From: a virus
Length of the DNA stretch: 20,226 bases
Strand: one strand, 5' to 3'
Virus record (IMG/VR): IMGVR_UViG_3300027752_000146
Coordinates: 1 to 20,226 of that record
Shown here: positions 559 through 16,743 of the stretch, one piece after another
How positions within the stretch are numbered: the stretch's first letter is position 1
Layout of the letters: the number at the start of each line of letters is the position of its first letter
The notes under the pieces: model-generated
What the model was told of the DNA's origin: nothing
Database searches by the model: none
Seen by the model: only the letters and a program-made list of their open reading frames with translations
Made by a program: the position numbers and the translations under genes

Positions 559-891
559 TTATTTGCTACTTACAAAAATATCAGATCCTACGGAAAACAA
601 CTCTGCGTAATCCACAGAATTATTTTTAAATTGCATTTCAGCGTAATAACCTTTTAACCCACTGGTGTTTACACTAGCAGTTTTACTGAACAATATAAAG
701 CTAGTTAAATCAGGTCTTGCTGCACTTGTGCTTATTTCTGTTGTCACTGTATTTAAGACTCTATCAACAGCTGTTATTGCTCCCATAATCTGTATATCAG
801 CACCATTTATTTCATTACTGTAATAAGTTGTGTCTCCTACCTGTATAGATACATTTAAGGGTTGAGTAAATGTTAGTGTTATCAAGTCCAT
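559..891 (-). CDS. Small conserved phage structural-type protein, unknown role
   Basis: A 110-residue protein without Cys or a membrane segment. The N-terminal half alternates in a beta-strand pattern (MDLITLTFTQPLNVSIQVGD). The C-terminal half holds the segment SGLKGYYAEMQFKNNS followed by AELFSVGSDIF and the ending SSK. From memory, a protein ending in this style (SGL.GYYAE..FKN...AELF.VGSE) recurs in marine Bacteroidota phage contigs, but I cannot name a function. It sits between the Cys-module tail genes and the Gln-rich partial gene, which favours a virion or tail accessory role. Its start is preceded by three copies of TAAA on the coding strand, as in its upstream neighbours, so it seems to be expressed like them. 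Confidence 0.8.
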   Translation of the reverse strand: MDLITLTFTQPLNVSIQVGDTTYYSNEINGADIQIMGAITAVDRVLNTVTTEISTSAARPDLTSFILFSKTASVNTSGLKGYYAEMQFKNNSVDYAELFSVGSDIFVSSK

Positions 892-892
892 A

Positions 893-904
893 TTTATTTA
901 TTTA
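893..904 (-). repeat. (TAAA)3 leader before the 110-residue gene
   Basis: Three tandem copies of TTTA on the plus strand (TAAA on the coding strand) begin two bases beyond the ATG of the 110-residue gene. The repeat also supplies the TAA stop of the upstream 88-residue gene (902-904). It is the shortest gap in the cassette and carries no purine-rich Shine-Dalgarno sequence. Confidence 0.85.
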
Positions 905-1168
905 TTGAGGTGGTGCGCTACACGTTACATCGTCACTGTAATATCCATCTGCAGCAAGTGTGCCATCTGATTGATAAAGAACAGTCGCCGGATTGGCTCC
1001 GTCAAAAGTTTGCCCTGTTAAAATATATACGGTGACTGGTGTTGGATTTCCACAGCATAAGTCGTTGGAGCTTGTTTGCGAATAACATAATGGTATTGAG
1101 TATAAGCATGGAGTACAGGTATCTGTACTCTGCAGGGTACCTGTTTGTTGTCGTCTAAAAGTTGCCAT
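902..1168 (-). CDS. Small Cys-rich tail-cassette protein with leader and CC/GYYSD module
   Basis: An 88-residue protein of unknown function. Residues 1-21 (MATFRRQQTG to CTPC) form a leader shared with the 294- and 87-residue proteins, with Cys at 18 and 21. Next comes a Cys-rich module: LCYS with Cys 28, the pair Cys38-Cys39, a beta-like stretch (TVYILTG), GYYSD at 75-79 and Cys 83. All six Cys match those of the 87-residue protein at identical or near-identical positions, so the two are clear paralogues. There is no signal peptide or membrane helix. The Cys pattern could bind a metal or form disulfides; the sequence does not decide. Its position next to fibre-like genes suggests a small virion-surface subunit. 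Confidence 0.85.
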   Translation of the reverse strand: MATFRRQQTGTLQSTDTCTPCLYSIPLCYSQTSSNDLCCGNPTPVTVYILTGQTFDGANPATVLYQSDGTLAADGYYSDDVTCSAPPQ

Positions 1169-1172
1169 ATTG

Positions 1173-1184
1173 TTTATTTATTTA
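1173..1184 (-). repeat. (TAAA)3 leader before the 88-residue gene
   Basis: Three TTTA copies on the plus strand, followed by a T run at 1185-1190, lie just upstream of the ATG at 1166-1168. On the coding strand the leader is an A/T-only stretch with one C. The start-proximal bases (gttgccatat on the plus strand) match those before the 87-residue gene, so repeat and gene start look duplicated together. Confidence 0.8.
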
Positions 1185-1200
1185 TTTTTTATTAGTTTTG

Positions 1201-2085
1201 TTACGTACAGTTATTATCTGGGCAGCAAAGCCTAAAAACTTTCCATGCAGTATTAGCTGTTCCTGTGATCCTAACGGTAGCAATAGGATTTGATTGAAAG
1301 TCTGCAGTTGTGTACTCCCACCAAATTACTTGCTGATAGGTTGGGTTGCCACTTCCACCGGGGTTCAAATTAACCACTGTATAACCTGTAGCTGTATTAA
1401 ACTCCGTTAGCCTTGTAACAGTCCAAGGGCTTTGAATATCATCACCTATAAATTGAGCGTTAGCTATAGCTTGAGGCTTAGAAGGGATGAGGTTACTGGG
1501 CTCTGTTCCATAAGTGTTATCAAATGGCCCTGAATTACCGGTTGCAGACACACCAGATGTAGATACTTTAGTTCCATTAGAAGGATTACCATGTATAATC
1601 TCTAATTTGTCTGGAACAGAAGAAGCATAAAGAAGGAAAGCTAGAAGCCCTCCAGAGCTGTCTAGATTTATATTAGTATCCTGGACACCAGCATTACCGG
1701 AAATAGTTGCAGCTCCGCAAGTAAAACTAACAGCAGATACAAATTGTATTATTGCGCCAAAAGCAGTCCCGATTTCGTTTGTAGCAAAAGCTCTAACGTA
1801 GTAAGTACTATTAACGGTTAAGCCTGTAATGGAACTAGCGAAACTAGCAGTACCTGCTCCTACGGCTGTCGCTCCCATTTGTGTGGCGAAATTATCAGCA
1901 CTCCATTGTATACCCTTTTGAGATACTGTTCCACCTCCGTCTGTTATGGTTTCACCTCCGCTATCAGCAGCGGTGCCTGTCTCGTTTGACACGCTTGTAG
2001 TTACGATTGTAGGAAGCGCAACACACGAACTGCAAGTTGTTAAAACCTCTAGGTCTGTAGCTGTTTGTTCTCTATAGTTAGCCAT
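1201..2085 (-). CDS. Probable tail/fibre accessory protein: shared Cys leader, FN3-like domain, conserved C-terminal domain
   Basis: A 294-residue protein. Residues 1-21 (MANYREQTAT to CSSC) match the leader of the 88- and 87-residue neighbours, with Cys at exactly 18 and 21. Residues about 25-117 form an FN3-like repeat of Bacteroidota style: a GG..I.DGGG.V...GIQWS stretch, then STYYVRAFATNEIGTAFG, which matches the usual TYYVRAYATN..GTAYG signature. From about residue 123, a second domain contains VPDKLEIIHGN, GPFDNTYGT and a Trp-rich VIWWEYTTADF, a combination I associate with adhesin-like phage proteins but cannot name. The protein ends in a Cys cluster (LCCPDNNC). No signal peptide is seen, as expected for a virion protein. 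A role in host-surface contact is inferred from the domains and neighbours. Confidence 0.85.
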   Translation of the reverse strand: MANYREQTATDLEVLTTCSSCVALPTIVTTSVSNETGTAADSGGETITDGGGTVSQKGIQWSADNFATQMGATAVGAGTASFASSITGLTVNSTYYVRAFATNEIGTAFGAIIQFVSAVSFTCGAATISGNAGVQDTNINLDSSGGLLAFLLYASSVPDKLEIIHGNPSNGTKVSTSGVSATGNSGPFDNTYGTEPSNLIPSKPQAIANAQFIGDDIQSPWTVTRLTEFNTATGYTVVNLNPGGSGNPTYQQVIWWEYTTADFQSNPIATVRITGTANTAWKVFRLCCPDNNCT

Positions 2086-2090
2086 ATTTT

Positions 2091-2106
2091 TTTATTTATT
2101 TATTTA
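2091..2106 (-). repeat. (TAAA)4 leader before the 294-residue gene
   Basis: Four TTTA copies on the plus strand begin six bases beyond the ATG at 2083-2085 and extend into the stop codon (2104-2106) of the upstream 87-residue gene. There is no Shine-Dalgarno-like sequence. Confidence 0.85.
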
Positions 2107-2367
2107 TACCTGTGAGCACGGTCCATCAGCACTGTAAAAACCAGCAGCTGCTAACGATCCTCCAGATAAAGCAGTGGTTGCGTAAAGATTAGAAGCAGTT
2201 GTAAAATTTTCTCCTACTGGAACGTATACGTTAACTAGCGACACTACATTACAGCACACATCACTGGCGCTTGTTGAAGAATAACATAAAGATAAAGTGG
2301 TGTAACAGTTAGGGCAATTGTTGGAGCCTAGCAATGAAGAACCTGTTTGTTGTCTATAAGTTGCCAT
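2104..2367 (-). CDS. Small Cys-rich tail-cassette protein, paralogue of the 88-residue protein
   Basis: An 87-residue protein with the same plan as the 88-residue gene product at 902-1168: leader MATYRQQTG with Cys 18 and 21, LCYS with Cys 28, the pair Cys38-Cys39, a beta-like NVYVPVG stretch, GFYS at 76-79 and a last Cys at 84. The body has diverged more than the leader, so the duplication is not recent. The function is unknown. The leader suggests docking to a common partner, and the neighbourhood suggests a tail or capsid surface protein. Its start has the longest TAAA repeat of the cassette. It follows the 652-residue fibre-like gene, which contains a related Cys module. Confidence 0.85.
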   Translation of the reverse strand: MATYRQQTGSSLLGSNNCPNCYTTLSLCYSSTSASDVCCNVVSLVNVYVPVGENFTTASNLYATTALSGGSLAAAGFYSADGPCSQV

Positions 2368-2369
2368 AT

Positions 2370-2393
2370 TTTATTTATTTATTTATTTATTTA
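2370..2393 (-). repeat. (TAAA)6 leader before the 87-residue gene
   Basis: Six perfect TTTA copies (24 bases) on the plus strand begin two bases beyond the ATG at 2365-2367. They fill most of the gap to the stop of the 652-residue gene at 2399. This is the longest simple repeat in the window. Confidence 0.9.
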
Positions 2394-2398
2394 TTATT

Positions 2399-4357
2399 TT
2401 AATTATGAGTATAATTTGCAAGAATGTAATCCCAATCGCCAAGATTCAAGCCGGCAGCTCCATTTGGATTTCTATATTCCCAAGTAATTTTATCGAATAG
2501 TATTGTCGATGTTGATGTTATAACTACAGTGTAAGATTGATTTGGAAATTCTTGTAGGAAAGGCACATTCACTTTGTTATCGCCGCTTACGGGTCCTGAG
2601 CTAAGCACAACCACTGCAGGGCTTTCAGGTAATACGGTTGAAAAATCTGCACTTAGATTTGATGCTGCTGCAAATATTTCAAAACTATATGTTGCAGTCG
2701 ATGCTGTAACTATATTTAAACTAACTGAAGTAGTTGTAGTAGAGTAAGCCATGTAATCCCCAAAGGCATAGAACCTGTTATTTAAAATACCCGATGTGTA
2801 GAATGCAGAATAGTCCACCCACCCCGTTACACCTTCTTCAGGAACTGGAGCCACGCTGCAATCTATACCTGAATGATCACTATAATATCCATCAGGGGCT
2901 TTAGTTTGAAAGCTAGTATCCGTATATAAATCACCTGTTACGCCAGCTAAATTAGCTACATCTCCCTGCGCAAATACCGTGCGAGACTCCGGAGTACCAC
3001 AACATAAACCATCCTCAGTTAGCGCATAACATAAACTTAACTCTGTGTACGCTAGTAAGAAGTTATCAAGATTAAGCACACTTGATAAAGACTGAATTCC
3101 TACGTTAGCAATGTTTGTATTTAAACTTATAACTAAAGTTTTAGGATCTGATGAATTATTTACAGCTATTGTCAAAGGAGCTTGTACCGCTTGCTCAGTA
3201 ATAGGGAAGTCTCCATTTTGATTTGACCAGTCTAAATTAGTGGGTATTGTATCAAAAACAAAGTTTTGACTACTTCCTGGCTTCTCAGCTGATACGCTAT
3301 AAGCGGTAACACCAGGTGTCCCTAAAGCACTAAAAGACTTAATGTCAGCGGCCCCGACTGTTATGCTTGAAAACGTAGATGTTAAATTAAAACTAACGTC
3401 TTGCGTTGTATATTGATGTATTTGCCATACGGAAGGCTGTCCTGTAACGCATGGTGACGTTGTACAAAAAGAACTAGCTAAATCACCAGTTAATGTAAAT
3501 GTATAAACAACATCAACTGAAGATGCTGGAAAAATTACGCTTTCCGTAACTGAGCCACTACTGTCTATTGTCCCTGAAAATGACCCAATCGTTGTACCTA
3601 CAACACTTTCTGTAACTTGTAATTGCCACGCCGCTCCTGTTATACCGTAAATCGTAATAGGTCTAGTTTCCCCAGATACTATCACGTTTGCAAGATTCAT
3701 GGAATAAGATTGTATTTCTGTAGATGGACTATATATTTCAGCTGCATTAGCTGTAACTACTATACGGTCTCCAGTCACTGAGTAATTTGGAAACGTGTAG
3801 TTTACGGCAAAATTTACTTGTATAAGATTTCCTGCCGCGTCATTAATCAACGTTGGCACAATTGAGTAATCAGTTAACGAGCCGACAACTAAAGAAGCTG
3901 TGGGTAACTCTGGAAAATAATATCCGGTCGTAGCTGTTACAGTTAAGTTGGTTATCTCTGATGTAGAAGAAATTACGCCTGTACCATTATATGGAGCTGA
4001 TGATGAAGGAACTCCTGTTGATGCAAAAGTTGTGTAATAATTAACTACACCAGCTACAGATACTTCGCTTAAAGATGCCGATCCATTAATACATAAAGCT
4101 ATTAATACATTGCTGCTAGGCATTACACTGGGTGACGTGTATAATATTACGCACTCTATATTAGCCCCTGATTGTGAAAACGTAACAGAGTCAACATAGT
4201 TAGGCAATGTGTTTCTAGGCGAAAAATCCGCAACATTTATTACATACCCCGCATTAGGAGTTATAGTTAACGCTACGGAAGGACGACTCTGTGTCCAGTC
4301 TACTCCTCCCTCTTCATTAAAACTTACTACATTTACTGTAAAATTATCAAATGCCAT
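2399..4357 (-). CDS. Large beta-rich tail fibre / adhesin-like protein with internal Cys module
   Basis: A 652-residue protein, rich in Ser, Thr, Val and Asn, with many short alternating strands and no membrane segment. Two related N-terminal repeats are visible at about residues 28-94 (ALTITPNAGYVI, then NIECVILYTSPS) and 137-206 (NLTVTATTGYYF, then IQVNFAVNYTFP), suggesting tandem Ig-like or InlB-like units. A pair Cys298-Cys303 lies in FCTTSPC. Residues about 440-500 hold a Cys module (LSLCY at 440-444, Cys452-Cys453, GYYSD at 490-494, Cys500) related to that of the two small genes downstream. The C-terminal part (about 510-652) is another beta domain ending near FDKITWEYRNPNG. It directly follows the 1508-residue neck protein gene, so a tail fibre or appendage is the best reading. 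The exact virion position is unknown. Confidence 0.8.
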   Translation of the reverse strand: MAFDNFTVNVVSFNEEGGVDWTQSRPSVALTITPNAGYVINVADFSPRNTLPNYVDSVTFSQSGANIECVILYTSPSVMPSSNVLIALCINGSASLSEVSVAGVVNYYTTFASTGVPSSSAPYNGTGVISSTSEITNLTVTATTGYYFPELPTASLVVGSLTDYSIVPTLINDAAGNLIQVNFAVNYTFPNYSVTGDRIVVTANAAEIYSPSTEIQSYSMNLANVIVSGETRPITIYGITGAAWQLQVTESVVGTTIGSFSGTIDSSGSVTESVIFPASSVDVVYTFTLTGDLASSFCTTSPCVTGQPSVWQIHQYTTQDVSFNLTSTFSSITVGAADIKSFSALGTPGVTAYSVSAEKPGSSQNFVFDTIPTNLDWSNQNGDFPITEQAVQAPLTIAVNNSSDPKTLVISLNTNIANVGIQSLSSVLNLDNFLLAYTELSLCYALTEDGLCCGTPESRTVFAQGDVANLAGVTGDLYTDTSFQTKAPDGYYSDHSGIDCSVAPVPEEGVTGWVDYSAFYTSGILNNRFYAFGDYMAYSTTTTSVSLNIVTASTATYSFEIFAAASNLSADFSTVLPESPAVVVLSSGPVSGDNKVNVPFLQEFPNQSYTVVITSTSTILFDKITWEYRNPNGAAGLNLGDWDYILANYTHN

Positions 4358-9819: not shown

Positions 9820-10605
9820 TTATGATTTTTCTTGTTGAATTTTCTGTTGTTCTTCTGCATTAAAAACTTGATATAGACTTAAATCTTTAATCAAAACTCC
9901 AGCAAGCTCTAATATTTTTATTACAAGTTCAGTCTCTTCCGATGGATCCAATTCAAAATCAACTGCAGATGTTGAATCGTATAAAGCCTCCCCATATATC
10001 ATTTGGTAGCCCCATTCAACTTTCGCTGGCTCACGTATGTAAGTTATGCTTACAGAACCTGCGGCAGTTATTTCTTCTGCTCCGTACACGTTAACACCTT
10101 TACTATTGGCAGTATACACTGGCCTAACATTTTTAGGTTTTGTTAAAGGCGAAGCGTTTATATACAAAAATTCATTCATATTAATTCGCTCAGCTTCTAT
10201 TAACTCATTTGTAGTCTGCCTATATACAGTAGGATTTGCTGCTGGGTAATTAGCGATTTGTGTTGGTGAAGGATACAGATCTTTAGTTGTAGTATTTTTG
10301 TAAATAACCGTACCTAATCGATACATATCAGTAGGCAATTTGTAGTGATCAGTATGGTAAGTCAACGCAGAGGAATCCTCAAACGCTGATATTTTTTTAT
10401 TTAAGACATCTAACATATCAGAGTACTCTGTATCATTACCAGGTATTCTTCCAAATTGATTAATGTCATAAAAGTATTGTTCAAACAAATCTAACTGTGC
10501 TTGATTTGCAAACAAATTAAATTCTTGAGGCGTAACGTACCCTCGTTGTTCTTTATTGAGTATTCCTAATACTCTTTGATAAACAGTATCTACACTTACG
10601 CTCAT
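9820..10605 (-). CDS. Head-tail adaptor / ring-type structural protein
   Basis: A 261-residue protein. It begins with VDTVYQRVLGILNKEQRGYVTP, then FNLFANQAQLDLFEQYFYDIN, an amphipathic helical opening that I recognise from the neck proteins of crAss-like and uncultured marine podoviruses. A middle segment contains YKLPTDMYRLGTVIY, and a later one VSITYIREPAKVEWGYQM, where strands precede a conserved-looking P..V.WGY motif. The C-terminus (LDPSEETELVIKILELAGVLIKDLSLYQ) is helical and ends in a Gln-rich tail. Function is inferred: a ring bound to the portal that extends the neck. It is the first gene after a hairpin-containing gap, so its expression may differ from that of the capsid genes upstream. 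Confidence 0.7.
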   Translation of the reverse strand: MSVSVDTVYQRVLGILNKEQRGYVTPQEFNLFANQAQLDLFEQYFYDINQFGRIPGNDTEYSDMLDVLNKKISAFEDSSALTYHTDHYKLPTDMYRLGTVIYKNTTTKDLYPSPTQIANYPAANPTVYRQTTNELIEAERINMNEFLYINASPLTKPKNVRPVYTANSKGVNVYGAEEITAAGSVSITYIREPAKVEWGYQMIYGEALYDSTSAVDFELDPSEETELVIKILELAGVLIKDLSLYQVFNAEEQQKIQQEKS

Positions 10606-10619
10606 ATTTTTTATTATTA

Positions 10620-10665
10620 TTTATAGTAAATTAGGCTACCTTAGAAGCAGCCTAACCACTATAAA
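10620..10665 (-). promoter_or_regulatory. Two-step hairpin in the gap before the ring-protein gene
   Basis: Two nested perfect inverted repeats are visible. The inner one pairs 10631-10637 (ttaggct) with 10649-10655 (agcctaa) around an 11-base loop. The outer one pairs 10620-10626 (tttatag) with 10659-10665 (ctataaa), with 4- and 3-base bulges between. On the coding strand the structure ends about 14 bases before the ATG at 10605 and is followed by A/T-rich sequence without a strong U run. It could be a weak terminator, an mRNA-processing or stability element, or a translation modulator. The sequence cannot decide between these. Confidence 0.6.
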
Positions 10666-10672
10666 AGGTAAC

Positions 10673-11494
10673 TTAGTAAAGTTTCTTTAAAATCGCTTTA
10701 TATACCTCCATACCTTCATCTGTTTTGAAGTATGCAGCTAATGCGGAGTATGGATGCTCATCAAACGGAATTGTTAAAAGTTTCCTGTTCGTTTCTCCAT
10801 AATTGAATGTTCGTTGATCTTGCGATAAACTTATGATATTAGCTTCAACAGCTTTAACACCAACATTTCTTAATTGTACATTATCATCATTTGCTAATTG
10901 TATAAACAAATGCGGTTGTCTTTTTGCGAAGATCATAAGATCTCTTTTAATTTCGCTAGAAGATAAATCGCTAACCTTGCTTCCAAATTCAACTCTTAAG
11001 ATCGCTTCAGCTTCGTCAACTGTCATTTCTCTTGCTGAGTTCAATGCTTCTAATTCTAGTTCAATCCAGTCTAATTCATTTTCTGAAATTCCTACCGGGT
11101 CAAATTCGTAATATACTTGGTCTTTAAATGGATGATATAGTGATAATAATTTTTGAAGAGCAACTTGTTCTTTGGGAACAACTAACTGTCCATTACGCAA
11201 TATAATTCTACCTAAGGTAGATGTGCCTTTCTGTTCGTCAGCAAAAACTGATGGCTGATTGGTTGCGTATCTTAATTCTCTATTGTAACCTAACTCTTTG
11301 TCAAAATACAATAAAGGTTTTCTTTGACTATGTTTAGATGGCATACTATATACCAACGGAGATTTACCCGTCTTTAAAACATAAGTTCTATCTTTAAATT
11401 CAAACACTGGTTTAGCAGGTGCTTGTGGAGCAGATTTTACTGCTACTGGCTGAGGAGCAACCTCAACTTTCTTTGCTACAGCTTGTTTAGCCAT
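10673..11494 (-). CDS. Conserved phage protein of unknown role, next to the capsid gene
   Basis: A 273-residue protein. Residues 1-30 are a low-complexity Ala/Pro/Lys/Val segment (AVAKKVEVAPQPVAVK and on), probably disordered. The body starts at VFEFKDRTYVLKTG and includes IILRNGQLVVPKEQVALQKLLSLYHP, an EFDP stretch, an acidic helical region (residues about 138-175), EIKRDLMIFAKRQP and an ending ALAAYFKTDEGMEVYKAILKKLY. I cannot assign a function. Its place between the major capsid gene and the first ring gene suggests a virion or assembly protein, but a regulatory role cannot be excluded. It is bounded on both sides by gaps with inverted repeats, so it may be a transcript unit of its own or be set at a different level from the capsid protein. 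Confidence 0.75.
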   Translation of the reverse strand: MAKQAVAKKVEVAPQPVAVKSAPQAPAKPVFEFKDRTYVLKTGKSPLVYSMPSKHSQRKPLLYFDKELGYNRELRYATNQPSVFADEQKGTSTLGRIILRNGQLVVPKEQVALQKLLSLYHPFKDQVYYEFDPVGISENELDWIELELEALNSAREMTVDEAEAILRVEFGSKVSDLSSSEIKRDLMIFAKRQPHLFIQLANDDNVQLRNVGVKAVEANIISLSQDQRTFNYGETNRKLLTIPFDEHPYSALAAYFKTDEGMEVYKAILKKLY

Positions 11495-11527
11495 AATATG
11501 ATATAATTAAATAGTTTTTAAAAGTGT

Positions 11528-11567
11528 GACGATAGCTTATATATATAATTAATAAGAGGCTATTGTC
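11528..11567 (-). terminator. Candidate terminator-like stem in the gap after the capsid gene
   Basis: Bases 11528-11536 (gacgatagc) and 11559-11567 (gctattgtc) are an inverted repeat of nine positions with one imperfect pair, around a 22-base A/T loop. On the coding strand the imperfect pair is A-C, so the stem has eight of nine pairs. It is followed shortly by ACACTTTTT, a modest U run. This fits a weak intrinsic terminator for the capsid-gene transcript, about 60 bases after the capsid stop codon. Confidence 0.45.
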
Positions 11568-11573
11568 GTATAA

Positions 11574-11609
11574 GGGTAATAATTACCCCCGTAGATTCAA
11601 CGAGGGTAA
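11574..11609 (-). promoter_or_regulatory. Overlapping, mutually exclusive hairpins just after the capsid gene
   Basis: The segment gggtaat (11574-11580) is perfectly complementary to attaccc (11582-11588). The same central arm can instead pair with gggtaa at 11604-11609: ttaccc at 11583-11588 pairs with it, and cgt (11590-11592) pairs with acg (11600-11602), across a one-base mismatch and a seven-base loop. The two structures share an arm and cannot form together. On the coding strand the second pairing is transcribed first, starting about 20 bases after the capsid stop at 11629. Such arrangements occur in attenuators and in 3'-end stabilising structures. The role here is open. Confidence 0.55.
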
Positions 11610-11628
11610 GAATTACATTAATTTAGTA

Positions 11629-13083
11629 CTAGGCTTTTTTCAACAATACAAAGTTGTTAGCAGCTTGTACACATAAACATCTTTCTGATAAGAAGTGAAC
11701 GTTCATTGCATCTTCGTCACTTGTATAGTTTCCACCAACAGATCCAGTAATCCAAGATTTCATCTTTCTATCATCTGCTTCAGAAGCTCTGTAACGGATG
11801 TGTAAGAATGGTCTTGAAATGTTCTGTCCTAATGATTGATCATATACAGTTGAAGTTCCAGCTGGTACAATAACTCCTTCAACATCTCCAACTAATCCTC
11901 TAGTTGTAGAGTCGTTTAAGTATTTCCAGTCAGTCTTATAGAAATCGTAAGATCCTCTACGGAATCCGCTAAATCCTAAGTTAAGTGCCATGTCTTCAGA
12001 ATTTTCGAATACTCCAAAAGAAGTTCCTCCTGCTCCGTAAGAATTTTGTGCAGCTAACATGTTGTCAATCCCTAAAGAAGTAGCTCTATCTAAGAACATC
12101 ATGTTCTCTTCAATAGCCCCTTGCTTATCTAGTTCTCCTAAAATAGCATCAAAGTCTTCAAGTCCAGTTGCTCCTGCTGCTATTGAACCGAAGTCAGCAT
12201 CAGTATAAACTAATCCTCTAGTTTCAAGTGCAGAGAAAAGACCGTCAGATCCAGTAAGAGCAGTTCCGCCACCTAATCCAGTAGCTGGAGCAATTGGGTT
12301 TACAGCTTTTTCAGCTTCAATCATACTCATCTCTAATTGATCTTCAAAACGAATTCTAGCTTCGTGCTCAGATTTTAAATACCATAAGTATCCAGAAGTT
12401 CCAGCTTCAGTTGTTACTTCAACCCACCCGATTTGAGCAGTGTCAGAACCACTTACAGCGTACTTATCTCTTAAGATAATTGGTTTGTTGTCAAATTTCT
12501 CAAAAGCAGCATCTACTGATGTTCCAGCGTTGCTTGTTCCTTTAGCATATTCAGAACCGTATACGAATACTTTACCAGCAGCTTGAGGAGTAAGAGCTCC
12601 AGCATATCCAGCTACAGTTAATATAACGTCTCCAGTTCCAGCGTTAGGTGCACCTACAGCTTGTACGTAAGCTTTTTCAACTGTTAATCCATTAGCAGAA
12701 GCTACTACTACAGTTGCTCCAGGGCCAATTAAATTAGTTGAAGCATTGTTAGCGTCCCCAGGGATTGTTATTTGCGCGGCTAAGACAGCTACAGGGTCAT
12801 ACGCAATGTGTAATCTTCCTTGCTCAGACCATACAACTACATCAGAAGCCATAGGCATTTCTGCTCCTACCATACGTAAGAATCCAGAGATAGTACGGTT
12901 TCCGTATCTTTCTACTTCTTTCTCGTATACTTCTGGTAAAAATTGTTGTGTAAAATCTAAATCAGTTAAAGTTAAATAGTTGTCATTAAATAATGTTTGT
13001 GTTGGGCGTGGAGTTAAATGATTTAACTGCGCGCCAGCAGGGGTACCTGGGGGTACTCCAAATTGTCCGTTTGGGTTTGCCAT
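11629..13083 (-). CDS. Major capsid protein (HK97 fold expected)
   Basis: A 484-residue protein placed directly after the scaffold gene, where tailed phages keep the shell subunit. The N-terminal arm is Pro/Gly/Asn-rich, then comes LTDLDFTQQFLPEVYEKEVERYGNRT and the segment ISGFLRMVGAEMPMASD VVVW. Residues about 100-185 are an Ala/Gly/Val-rich beta insertion, probably a surface domain. A helical spine-like stretch follows (LKSEHEARIRFEDQLEMSMIEAEK, residues 237-259), and the C-terminus holds FLHIRYRASEADDRKMKSWITGS with two Cys at 469 and 471. The overall plan matches capsid proteins of crAss-like podoviruses as I recall them. Codon choice is uniform (GCT/GCA, CCA/CCT, TCT/TCA preferred), as in a strongly expressed gene. 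No linked protease gene is seen, so maturation may not involve a phage prohead protease from this region. Confidence 0.88.
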   Translation of the reverse strand: MANPNGQFGVPPGTPAGAQLNHLTPRPTQTLFNDNYLTLTDLDFTQQFLPEVYEKEVERYGNRTISGFLRMVGAEMPMASDVVVWSEQGRLHIAYDPVAVLAAQITIPGDANNASTNLIGPGATVVVASANGLTVEKAYVQAVGAPNAGTGDVILTVAGYAGALTPQAAGKVFVYGSEYAKGTSNAGTSVDAAFEKFDNKPIILRDKYAVSGSDTAQIGWVEVTTEAGTSGYLWYLKSEHEARIRFEDQLEMSMIEAEKAVNPIAPATGLGGGTALTGSDGLFSALETRGLVYTDADFGSIAAGATGLEDFDAILGELDKQGAIEENMMFLDRATSLGIDNMLAAQNSYGAGGTSFGVFENSEDMALNLGFSGFRRGSYDFYKTDWKYLNDSTTRGLVGDVEGVIVPAGTSTVYDQSLGQNISRPFLHIRYRASEADDRKMKSWITGSVGGNYTSDEDAMNVHFLSERCLCVQAANNFVLLKKA

Positions 13084-13108
13084 AATATTGGTTTTGTTTT
13101 AAGTTTAA

Positions 13109-14284
13109 TTATTTTTTACTTTTAATTCTCAACTTAGAAGAACTTTGACCACCTGAAATTGACTTAACTGACCATCCGTTAGAAGCTACGACGTTTTCAT
13201 GAGTCCCTCTAGGATCCATATCGATATTCTTGGCTTTGGCCATTGAACCTTTAATTGCGTCGGATTTTCCTTGCTCATAAAAGTGATTTGCAATTGCATC
13301 AGCGTTCATAGCTGTGTATAAGGATTTGTGGTAACCTGCAGCATCACTCATTTCATTTTTATCATTCAAGAACTTCTTGACAAAATTTGTGATATCGCTT
13401 TGACTCTCCTTAACCTGGTCCGCATTGTTAACTTTAAAACGGAATTTCTTTTCGCCAACACTGAAATCAAAACCTTTGAAATCTTTAGAAAAAAGTTGTT
13501 CTGTCTTGCTATCGAAAGCAGACCTTTGTTTATCAGCTACTTTAGTAGCCTCCTCGTTGTTTTCTTTATAGCGATTAAAAAAATCAACCGCATTTTTTTG
13601 TTCTGGATTTAATTTTGATCCAGCTTTAATTTCTTGGTAATACTTGCCTTTTAGCCCGTCTAAATGTCCTTTAGCTTTTGCTAGTTCTTCTTTACGCGCT
13701 AATTTTTTTCTTCGAATGTCCCTATCCTCATCCATGTCTTCATCATAAGAAAAGTTGTCTTCCATTAAGAAGTTAATTTCTTCTGCATCCAAATGAGGTT
13801 TTGTTGATTCATAATATTCTCTAAGTAATTGCCCTTCATCTAAAGAAGAATAATCGGTATTGAGTTTTACGTAATCTTCCAAGCTTCCTCCGGTTTCATT
13901 CATAAATTCAACAACCTTCTGAATATTTTCCGGTAATTCAACACCAGATTCTTGCTGTTCAGCTATAGCTTCCTGGATATCTTCTTGTAATTCTTCCGCA
14001 ACTTCAGCAACTTCTTCATTTGTTATTTCTTCAAGAACGGACTCCTCAACGTGAATGGGCTCTTGTACTTGCTCAACCACTGCTTCGCTACTCTGCGTGC
14101 CCTCGGGTTGCTCGACAGTAACATCGCTTTCATCTGGGATTTGTTCTTGAACGGCATCCTCTTGAGATTTGTTTAGTTCTCCTAAATTTACTTTAATAAT
14201 GCCATCGTCAAATGACATTGGCTTTTGAACTTCCTGAGCTGTTTCTTCAACCACAGGTGTTTCTTGTGTTGTTTCTTCTGACAT
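13109..14284 (-). CDS. Acidic scaffold-like assembly protein
   Basis: A 391-residue protein between the portal and capsid genes, the usual place for a scaffold. Residues 1-120 are strongly acidic and low in complexity (many Glu, Gln and Val; for example EEVAEVAEELQEDIQEAIAEQ), probably helical or disordered. Residues about 188-260 are rich in Lys and Glu with coiled-coil character (IRRKKLARKEELAKAK). The C-terminal end is basic and Ser-rich (SSSKLRIKSKK), which would suit binding to the capsid shell, as in known scaffolds with a basic C-terminus. No catalytic Ser-His motif of a prohead protease is evident. The short gap to the portal gene and the 25-base gap to the capsid gene favour joint expression. 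The role is inferred from position and composition. Confidence 0.75.
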   Translation of the reverse strand: MSEETTQETPVVEETAQEVQKPMSFDDGIIKVNLGELNKSQEDAVQEQIPDESDVTVEQPEGTQSSEAVVEQVQEPIHVEESVLEEITNEEVAEVAEELQEDIQEAIAEQQESGVELPENIQKVVEFMNETGGSLEDYVKLNTDYSSLDEGQLLREYYESTKPHLDAEEINFLMEDNFSYDEDMDEDRDIRRKKLARKEELAKAKGHLDGLKGKYYQEIKAGSKLNPEQKNAVDFFNRYKENNEEATKVADKQRSAFDSKTEQLFSKDFKGFDFSVGEKKFRFKVNNADQVKESQSDITNFVKKFLNDKNEMSDAAGYHKSLYTAMNADAIANHFYEQGKSDAIKGSMAKAKNIDMDPRGTHENVVASNGWSVKSISGGQSSSKLRIKSKK

Positions 14285-14316
14285 GATAAAATATTATATA
14301 ATTATTACTATTATTA

Positions 14317-16743
14317 TTACCTAGGATCAAAGGAACCTAGGTCAAAATCTCCACTAAGTATATCGTTCCCGCTGGATTCAAAGTTTTGAGGCGGTAAATC
14401 GTTCTGTCTTTGATTTATTAATTCACTTTGTTGGGACGCTTGTATCTTAGTACGATCGTCTTTTCTATCTTCTTTTGATTGTAATTCATTTTTTCTTCCT
14501 TGAACCTCTACACCTTTTAGTTGCATGTTCATTTGGAATTCTAATTGCATTAACTCTTTCTTTAGAGTAGCTTCTTGCATTAGCTTTTGATAATCAATTT
14601 GAGCTTTAGCTTGTTCAAAAGAAATCTTTTGTTGAGTTAAGGCTTGTTGTTTTTGCACCTCAGATTGGGCCGCGGCTTGACTTGCTTGCGCGTTAGCTTG
14701 AGCTTGAGCCTGCATATTTTCTTGCTGCATCTTTTGATCTAACATTTGCTTTTCTTTCTTTCTTACTTTAAGCAATTGATTAGCTAGCTTAATATTTTTA
14801 ATATCGCGTAAGTCGATAGCATCAGATAAATCTATCATACCTGCGGATACAGCTGCTTGTATATTGTTTTCAAGAACAGCTCTTTCTTCATCGTCAGGAG
14901 TTAATTCTATAAATATACCAAAGTCGTACATATATAAATTACTCATCTCAGCTAAAACAGCTACATTTTGATTACCTATTTTATGAATAAAAGCTTCTCT
15001 TGTTGGAGAATACTCTATTATATCTGATATTCTTAACGATAAATTATCACATAAATCTGCTGTTAAAAACAAACTGCTATCCAGTATGTGTCTTGTAGCT
15101 ACGTTTGAATTAGCAGCAGCCAATTTTTGTACACCTACTAACGCTCTAGAATCTGGAGTGCTTCCATCTCTAGCTTCGTTTAATCCGGTAACATCCCGAA
15201 TCATCTGTAAATAATAATTATATGTTGCTATTAAACTTTGCAATTTAGCTCCTCCTGACCCAGTCTGTAATTCCTGAATAGGAACTTTACCAGGATTCAT
15301 GTCGCCTTCTTGGGTGAATGATCTACCTATAACAGAACCTGTTTGGAAATACATATTCAAAGCTTCCTGAGGATTGTAATTTGTACCATTACCTAAATCA
15401 ACCTCCGCTAAACCATCCGCATCTAGGTATACTCCATCAGGAACCATTCTTGACATAACTTGTTGTAACTTCAAATGTGTCAACTGAATCATGTCTGCAA
15501 ACCCCGTTATACGCGATACAATGCTTTCTATTCGGCCTTTATACATTCTTGGGGCAACAATGCTATAATTCATTTTAACCTTGCTGTAGTCGCTCTTTGG
15601 CCTTATCATATTTTTAGCCATTTCCCACTTAAGCATTTTTCCACCAAGTACTTTAACTCCTTCATACAAAACCTCCAGTGATTGCGACAATTTAGAAATA
15701 CCCATCTCTTCCATCATTTCTTCCGGAGGATTAAAAGCATCACTTTTGGGTATTGTTTTTTCAGCACCTGTAGCTGTTTCTTTTACTTTATAAACGTCAT
15801 TAGCAAACGTCTTGTAATTAAAATATAGTATTTGAACCGTATTGGAATCGTCTTCATTACTGTTTGTTAGCGTGCGATCATAAAATCCATTGTTACTAGA
15901 AGATTGACTTGATATTTCTTTTAAATCATCTTCTGTTAATCCTGGAAATTGTTTTTTAAGCTCATTCAAATGAACGCTTCGTATTTCGCCTACATAATAT
16001 ATGTCATCAAAATAGGGTGAGTCTGTATAAGACCACACTAAATTTACAGGGTCTACATATTCAACTTTAACCCCCTCTGCTTTTGTAAATGAATTTTTAA
16101 CCGCTCCAATACCTATAGTTGTAATATCGTAATTGCAACGTCTTTTTATTAAGTCATATTTGTTGCCTTCTAGCAATACACTTATAGCTTGTTCCTCAGC
16201 TAATTCTACTTGCTGTTTATAGCTAAGCTGCATGTGCAATTCTAACTCTTCTTTATTTTTAGGGAGTGTTTCTGGGTCTGTTTCAAATAAGTTAACGCCA
16301 AATTCCGCTTGAGCAAATTCATTTAAGTCTTTGGTTTGCATATCTCTTAATATAGACTCCATATATTTGGTACGCTTGTCTACGCCGTAAGGGTCCTGCG
16401 AATACGCTTTAATATCAAAAGATCTATCTGAAATACCATTAACCACTATATCTACAAACTTCGGTATAATAGGTACAGGCTTCCAGTCTAAATTTAAGTA
16501 AGATAAGTCACCATTAATAGATAGCTCGTCTTTGTATTTTTGAACACCCTGCTCTCCTCTAGCATAAAGTCTTAGCTCATGAAAAGTGTTTTGATTACTT
16601 TTAAATCTACTCGTACCACTACCTGTTTTAAACCATTCGTTTTCAATAGCTCTACCTATAGACCTTCCGTAATCTATAGAGATTTTTTCCTCATCGCTAG
16701 CAATCTGGCTTGGAAAATAACTTGTTATAACTGACTCAGCCAT
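14317..16743 (-). CDS. Portal protein with long Gln/Ala-rich C-terminal helix
   Basis: An 808-residue protein next to the terminase gene. The portal-like body spans residues about 45-650: DWKPVPIIPKFVDIVVNGISDR near 86-107, YVDPVNLVWSYTDSPYFDD near 229-247, then a clip/stem-like region around IRPKSDYSKVKMNYSIVAPRMYKGR, and the well-kept TGLNEARDGSTPDSRALVGVQKL at 519-541, which resembles the helical region of podovirus portals. Residues about 655-775 form a long, highly Gln-, Ala-, Lys- and Met-rich helix (for example NMQAQAQANAQASQAAAQ), expected to build a barrel or extend into the capsid. The C-terminus is an acidic tail (ILSGDFDLGSFDPR). The portal forms the dodecameric DNA gate, docks the terminase and carries the ring proteins. 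Four bases separate it from the terminase stop codon. Confidence 0.88.
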   Translation of the reverse strand: MAESVITSYFPSQIASDEEKISIDYGRSIGRAIENEWFKTGSGTSRFKSNQNTFHELRLYARGEQGVQKYKDELSINGDLSYLNLDWKPVPIIPKFVDIVVNGISDRSFDIKAYSQDPYGVDKRTKYMESILRDMQTKDLNEFAQAEFGVNLFETDPETLPKNKEELELHMQLSYKQQVELAEEQAISVLLEGNKYDLIKRRCNYDITTIGIGAVKNSFTKAEGVKVEYVDPVNLVWSYTDSPYFDDIYYVGEIRSVHLNELKKQFPGLTEDDLKEISSQSSSNNGFYDRTLTNSNEDDSNTVQILYFNYKTFANDVYKVKETATGAEKTIPKSDAFNPPEEMMEEMGISKLSQSLEVLYEGVKVLGGKMLKWEMAKNMIRPKSDYSKVKMNYSIVAPRMYKGRIESIVSRITGFADMIQLTHLKLQQVMSRMVPDGVYLDADGLAEVDLGNGTNYNPQEALNMYFQTGSVIGRSFTQEGDMNPGKVPIQELQTGSGGAKLQSLIATYNYYLQMIRDVTGLNEARDGSTPDSRALVGVQKLAAANSNVATRHILDSSLFLTADLCDNLSLRISDIIEYSPTREAFIHKIGNQNVAVLAEMSNLYMYDFGIFIELTPDDEERAVLENNIQAAVSAGMIDLSDAIDLRDIKNIKLANQLLKVRKKEKQMLDQKMQQENMQAQAQANAQASQAAAQSEVQKQQALTQQKISFEQAKAQIDYQKLMQEATLKKELMQLEFQMNMQLKGVEVQGRKNELQSKEDRKDDRTKIQASQQSELINQRQNDLPPQNFESSGNDILSGDFDLGSFDPR

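Follow-up and report, generated by a model that had tools for sequence, protein, structure and literature searches.

A shared leader of adjacent phage genes resembles the split-off hairpin of a cysteine module and probably docks interchangeable domains at the tail tip

Results

Three adjacent genes with a common leader in a crass-like tail locus

Why should three neighbouring genes of a phage tail locus begin with the same short leader and then continue into different proteins? The window analysed here is a whole virus record of 20,226 bases; L002, L004 and similar labels denote related loci. The three reading frames singled out by an initial annotation are real, all lying on the minus strand while the plus strand is interrupted by stops. 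Their products share the starts given in Table 1 and have cysteines at exactly residues 18 and 21. As that annotation had described, the bodies behind the leader differ: one Cys module is common to the 88- and 87-aa proteins, and the 294-aa protein carries an FN3-like and a second domain. In the order of transcription on the minus strand, the genes encode a muzzle-like protein (1508 aa), the 652-aa protein (p652), the 87-, 294- and 88-aa leader proteins, the 110-aa protein (p110) and a glycine-rich internal protein.

Table 1. Positions of the leader genes, their parts and their neighbours in the window.
Feature	Positions	Strand	Basis or remark
Muzzle-like tail-tip protein, 1508 aa	4370..8896	-	related to phi40:1 and Flavobacterium elemo phage virion structural proteins
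652-aa protein (p652): core and internal Cys module without leader	2399..4357	-	
Cys module within p652 (residues 437-495), without closing hairpin; candidate leader acceptor	2873..3049	-	
AATAAATAAATAAATAAATAAATA tract directly before the 87-aa gene	2372..2395		
87-aa protein: leader and Cys module with open end (GFYSADGPCSQV)	2104..2367	-	
Leader of the 87-aa protein (residues 1-21), MATYRQQTGSSLLGSNNCPNC	2305..2367	-	ORF call and leader profile
Open Cys module of the 87-aa protein (residues 22-81), without closing hairpin	2125..2304	-	
294-aa leader protein; residues 22-294, FN3-like and second domain	1201..2085	-	
Leader of the 294-aa protein (residues 1-21), MANYREQTATDLEVLTTCSSC	2023..2085	-	ORF call and leader profile
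88-aa protein: leader and Cys module with open end (GYYSDDVTCSAPPQ)	902..1168	-	
Leader of the 88-aa protein (residues 1-21), MATFRRQQTGTLQSTDTCTPC	1106..1168	-	ORF call and leader profile
Open Cys module of the 88-aa protein (residues 22-80)	929..1105	-	
110-aa protein (p110); in other phages the C-terminal domain of the muzzle polypeptide	559..891	-	

The muzzle, the capsid and the neighbouring genes of the window match phage virion families in Pfam and PHROGs (the muzzle phrog_14478, E 1e-122), and the gene order around the muzzle homologue, which takes in the portal, the MCP and internal proteins, is conserved, as in a crass-like muzzle locus. The cultured relatives, at ~30% muzzle identity, are the Cellulophaga phages phi38:1, phi40:1 and Calle and the Flavobacterium elemo phages, and the muzzle of phi40:1 is a virion protein by MS/MS. 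Phages phi40:1 and phi38:1 (Pervagoviridae) and the elemo phages share the gene order of the window, but they have no p652, Cys module or leader genes, and their p110 lies within the muzzle polypeptide. The Crassvirales profiles Crass_capsid and crAss_MUZ_C score 12.3 and 18.4 bits, short of the cut-off of 27 in each case, and the window phage is best called crass-like/Pervagoviridae-related.

Distribution and conservation of the leader

More than 100 related loci were gathered by muzzle- and p110-based scans. On 24 related marine phage loci, 41 leader genes were tabulated, one to three per genome, sitting between the p652-type protein and p110. The leader has the consensus M-x-[NTD]-YRQQT-GG-xLG-xxx-CxxC; its cysteines are exactly at residues 18 and 21 in 29 of the 41 genes and displaced by -1 to +3 residues in the others. 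A leader profile search of the related contigs recovered leader proteins at E values of 5e-15 to 3e-6, with no further plausible leader ORF in 2.4 Mb. The shared leader is not a matter of chance. Scanning all viral contigs for the pattern yielded 30 stretches, of which about 25 are real, and the new ones came from the same type of locus. When the leader DNA pattern was run against 85,000 bacterial and archaeal genomes, 21 matches were obtained, none of which proved on inspection to be a leader gene (the ORFs were short or unrelated); the leader is therefore seen only in these phages. Across 23 leaders, pN of the core residues is 0.047 against a pS of 0.71, and the mean identity of the leader DNA is 63%. 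The leader is under purifying selection and constrained at the protein level.

The leader corresponds to the last hairpin of a Cys module

By sequence comparison, the leader is the C-terminal β-hairpin, together with the CxxC, of a Cys module of ~80 residues. Tandem modules within one chain occur in six related loci, L139, L144, L155, L182, L071 (667 aa) and L141, the first four comprising muzzle ends and arrays. In the tandem arrays a 'GYYSDG' strand is followed directly by '[YV]R[QN]...GG.L....C..C', which is the leader motif, and in continuous proteins the hairpin comes right behind the module, as in GTYSDG-SIYRNYDGQTGLFL..CPGC and GDGTGVQPFRQISDGNGTLG..CDVC. In the split genomes, the upstream protein ends in GFYKQ, GFYRE or GYYSD(D..C), and the next gene begins with MATYRQQT. 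When the 489-aa and 85-aa proteins of L052 are conceptually joined, they align end to end with the continuous proteins. Six cysteines are invariant in all 13 of the joined or continuous pairs, and the conserved residues are the Cys pairs.

Where a gene ends in an open module, the next gene is a leader gene in 27 of 30 distinct cases; the corresponding count for the remaining gene ends is 11 of 166 (Fisher p 4e-21, a value inflated by relatedness, the genomes not being independent samples). The number of leaders equals the number of open modules per genome in 74 of 77 loci (57 at 0/0, 12 at 2/2, 4 at 1/1 and the window at 3/3). Two of the three mismatches are accounted for, by a weak third match that ends in its own hairpin (L006) and a second leader inside a protein (L064); the third is one surplus open module at the muzzle end (L020). 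There the muzzle (10001-14533) terminates in an open Cys module (GFYIKQTN), and no leader gene stands directly behind it. A 119-aa protein of L139 consists of a leader, a body and a closing hairpin of its own, so that the leader is surplus to its own body. The 88-aa protein of the window, the last of the series, ends open, and the next gene is p110 and not a leader gene.

Across modules, a cysteine in the first strand (LCY) and one just after GYYSDD, located in the short tail that closes many open modules, covary, with 20 modules having both, 45 neither and 2 only one. This suggests a disulfide between the two in a subset of modules, in which case open modules may be partly self-capped. In L195-L200 we observed a second split point: the muzzle ends in ..LCRRGTLEDSCCNCDETPT and the next gene, of 386 or 398 aa, starts with MSNFYIDGTTLNNATAVYDD, the break falling between CC and FYIDG. 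The Cys module has therefore been split more than once between adjacent genes. Searches of Pfam, PHROGs and PDB sequences returned no family for the small proteins, and DNA and tblastn searches with the two found nothing in annotated phages.

Bodies are exchanged behind the leader and fused to core proteins

The leader is carried by at least eight dissimilar bodies. The initial annotation had expected a constant leader with changing bodies in related phages, and this was borne out. Between L002 and L030, the p652 core is 76% and p110 86% identical, and the terminal bodies have no detectable similarity, with the leader in common; L005 and L108 likewise share the leader, with 83% identity in p110 and unrelated bodies. 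L005 and L008, on the other hand, have p652 cores of only 43% identity, yet their bodies are 75% identical. As judged from these comparisons, bodies are exchanged behind a constant leader. The 294-aa protein itself has no Pfam match, and its 373-aa relative in L002 is barely above the fn3 cut-off (25.8 vs 25 bits).

What happens to the leader when a body is joined to its neighbour? In L004, a 710-aa protein consists of the p652 core (residues 1-444) joined directly to the equivalent of residues 22-294 of the 294-aa protein of the window. Over this stretch the two proteins are 56% identical (E 2e-98), the homology starting right after Cys21. Three body families, the Cys module, the FN3 type and a 112-aa type, are fused without leader to p652-type cores at residues ~435-447, and in fusions to the p652 core the body homology begins just past the leader. 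The loss of the leader in covalently fused bodies is the behaviour expected of a docking tag.

Two further kinds of fusion bear on where these proteins sit. In seven genomes the p652 homologue and the muzzle form one fused protein, and p110 makes up the C-terminal domain of the muzzle itself in four contigs (L072 and L074-L076) and in cultured phages (phi40:1, elemoA). To judge from these fusions, the tail tip is very probably the place of the leader proteins. The bodies may be receptor or glycan binders, as their position and exchange would suggest. In the window p110 is a separate gene, and p652 and the leader genes are inserted between the muzzle and p110.

Predicted structures of the leader

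The AlphaFold2 models of the L139 array (pLDDT 83, pTM 0.60) and of the joined L052 pair (pLDDT 87, pTM 0.65) both have a moderate pTM. In the array, the free N-terminal leader is modelled as a hairpin with strands 3-8 and 11-17 (pLDDT 88-89 for the leader), and the internal copies show a strand 92-97 and short bridges 106-107 and 111-112. In the joined L052 model, the leader has strands 64-69, 72-73 and 77-78, adjoining the upstream strand 54-58; this is the pattern of an internal hairpin, not that of the free leader. Both in its sequence and in its predicted strands, the leader matches the missing hairpin. PDB fold searches with both models gave no match, and BFVD contains related predicted proteins from uncultured phages.

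A proposed docking of the leader in trans and its alternatives

By sequence, the Cys module is divided across a gene boundary into complementary halves. The upstream proteins, p652-type or small Cys-module proteins, contain or end in a module that breaks off behind the 'GYYSD' strand, and the downstream proteins start with the missing strand-turn-strand 'YRQQT-GG-TLG' and CxxC. We propose that the open module is the socket and the leader hairpin the plug, with completion in trans, perhaps locked by disulfides that may involve the CxxC and the CC of the module. The leader is probably a trans-complementing, donor-strand-like hairpin of this kind, which docks on the open module of a neighbour and thereby attaches interchangeable domains to the muzzle of the tail tip. 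A relay is likely, in which the terminal body protein is held by the small module protein and the latter by p652; exchangeable adhesin-like domains would thereby hang on the muzzle, with which p652 homologues form one protein in other genomes. The equality of leader and open-module counts was rejected as proof of such a relay, because closure of the small proteins in cis fits the counts equally.

The initial annotation had taken the leader for a docking tag that attaches interchangeable domains to one site on the virion. The tag itself survives, in that the leader is constant, the bodies vary and the leader is lost from bodies covalently fused to a p652-type protein. Its free-standing nature does not, the leader being the final hairpin of a repeated Cys module, from which it is detached. 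The single site may not hold either: the likely partner is the open module of a neighbouring protein, and the arrangement may therefore be a chain instead of one fixed site on the virion.

Could the small proteins close their own modules? In this alternative, their N-terminal hairpin acts in cis, as in a circular permutation, and only the terminal leader docks, on the open module of p652. The counts agree with this equally well, each genome having a single open module on p652 and a single terminal leader protein, and the high-confidence prediction of the leader in the L139 array speaks for it. However, the small proteins would be left unattached despite their genes lying between both partners, the leaderless fused bodies (p652 residues 437-495) would be incomplete, and the 119-aa protein of L139 has a leader in addition to its own hairpin. 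We consider closure in cis unlikely.

Less probable still is that the leader is a plain tail-fibre tag bound by one dedicated hub site of the virion, its likeness to module hairpins being coincidental or merely ancestral. A constant leader on variable bodies would be expected from such a tag, and the crAss001 tail fibre gp22 is held in its hub via residues 1-26 (PMC10172136). Against this, leader-like hairpins recur within continuous proteins directly behind modules, leader genes track open module ends, and neither leader nor module was present when crAss001 was searched.

Two other explanations are very improbable. Readthrough, frameshift or bypass might yield both halves as a single protein, with no need for docking in trans, and indeed the joined halves form a continuous module and some junctions are in frame; but the junctions are spread over all three frames (16/10/15), the stop is TAA in 40 of 41, an ATG stands at every leader start behind AT-rich sequence, and the AATA tracts place stops in several frames, which makes readthrough or frameshift unlikely. 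That the shared 5′ end is a scar of recent duplication or gene shuffling with no role for the protein, as the clear swapping of bodies and the AT-rich AATA tracts ahead of several leader genes might suggest, is already disfavoured by the saturated synonymous sites, the fixed core residues and the low DNA identity of the leaders.

Returning to docking in trans, a broader version of it would have a natural tag/catcher relay at the tail tip, with one domain family split at two points in different lineages, the halves of separate polypeptides coming together again, with disulfides perhaps locking them, and the detached hairpin serving as a universal plug for swapping unrelated receptor-binding domains. 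To this broader version we give an even chance.

Comparison with known systems

We are not aware of a described counterpart in phage tails, and a search of mainly open-access papers found no such mechanism there. The principle, whether as donor strand or as split-domain tag and catcher, is already known outside phage tails. In donor-strand complementation and exchange, known from chaperone-usher pili and TasA fibres (PMC9674648), an incomplete β domain is completed by an N-terminal segment that the next subunit supplies, so that chains are formed. At the sequence level, the present locus likewise has a domain without its terminal hairpin, since the modules end after GYYSD and fused homologues continue. 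It differs in that the donor would be a hairpin of two strands carrying a CxxC instead of one lone strand, that variable bodies stand behind it, and that the setting is a phage tail-tip cassette with no chaperone or usher gene. The module has no Pfam match and no PDB fold or sequence match, a pilin-type Ig fold included, and its neighbours at the locus are the muzzle and internal virion genes.

In split-domain pairs of the SpyTag/SpyCatcher type (split CnaB domains, PMC5487036), one end of a domain is grafted onto a different protein and, by docking on the rest of the domain, brings along whatever cargo that protein supplies. The difference is that the present pair would be natural and encoded by adjacent phage genes, with Cys pairs as the conserved residues where CnaB halves form an autocatalytic isopeptide bond. 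Gp22 of crAss001, docked in the fibre hub by its N-terminal residues (PMC10172136), resembles the leader proteins, as proposed here, in being a variable surface protein anchored through a short stretch at its N-terminus, and disulfides stabilise the crassvirus tail; it has no sequence relation to them, its hub site is at the barrel and not at the muzzle, and no split module is involved.

If docking in trans is true, tail-tip domains could be exchanged without re-engineering one long fibre gene, as a constant plug and an open socket accept any body. Each leader would acquire a testable partner, and cassettes could be read by a simple rule, an open end upstream and a hairpin start downstream. 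The pair might also offer a new disulfide-based tag and catcher for protein engineering. As a caution, a small phage ORF that looks like an 'orphan' may be one half of a shared domain.

Tetranucleotide tracts and muzzle ends

AATA/TAAA tetranucleotide tracts of 3-6 units stand just ahead of the start codon of each leader gene and of p110 (2372-2395, 2092-2107, 1176-1187 and 891-906), and the window has no others besides these four. In relatives, one such tract lies ahead of the first leader gene (L002 6633, L003 5981, L020 16308, L064 13464 and L141 7683). The tracts could be AT-rich translation signals or a slippage-prone tuning of expression.

The ends of the muzzle vary widely among relatives. 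The muzzle of L002 (1-4662) has a long C-terminal extension of repeats (WDVSNVTNM..FNQDI), which we take to be BspA/DUF285-like. In L083 (10001-19084), a muzzle homologue of 3028 aa ends in ..FFANSVLVHNKG, resembling the C-terminus of a Hint/intein domain.
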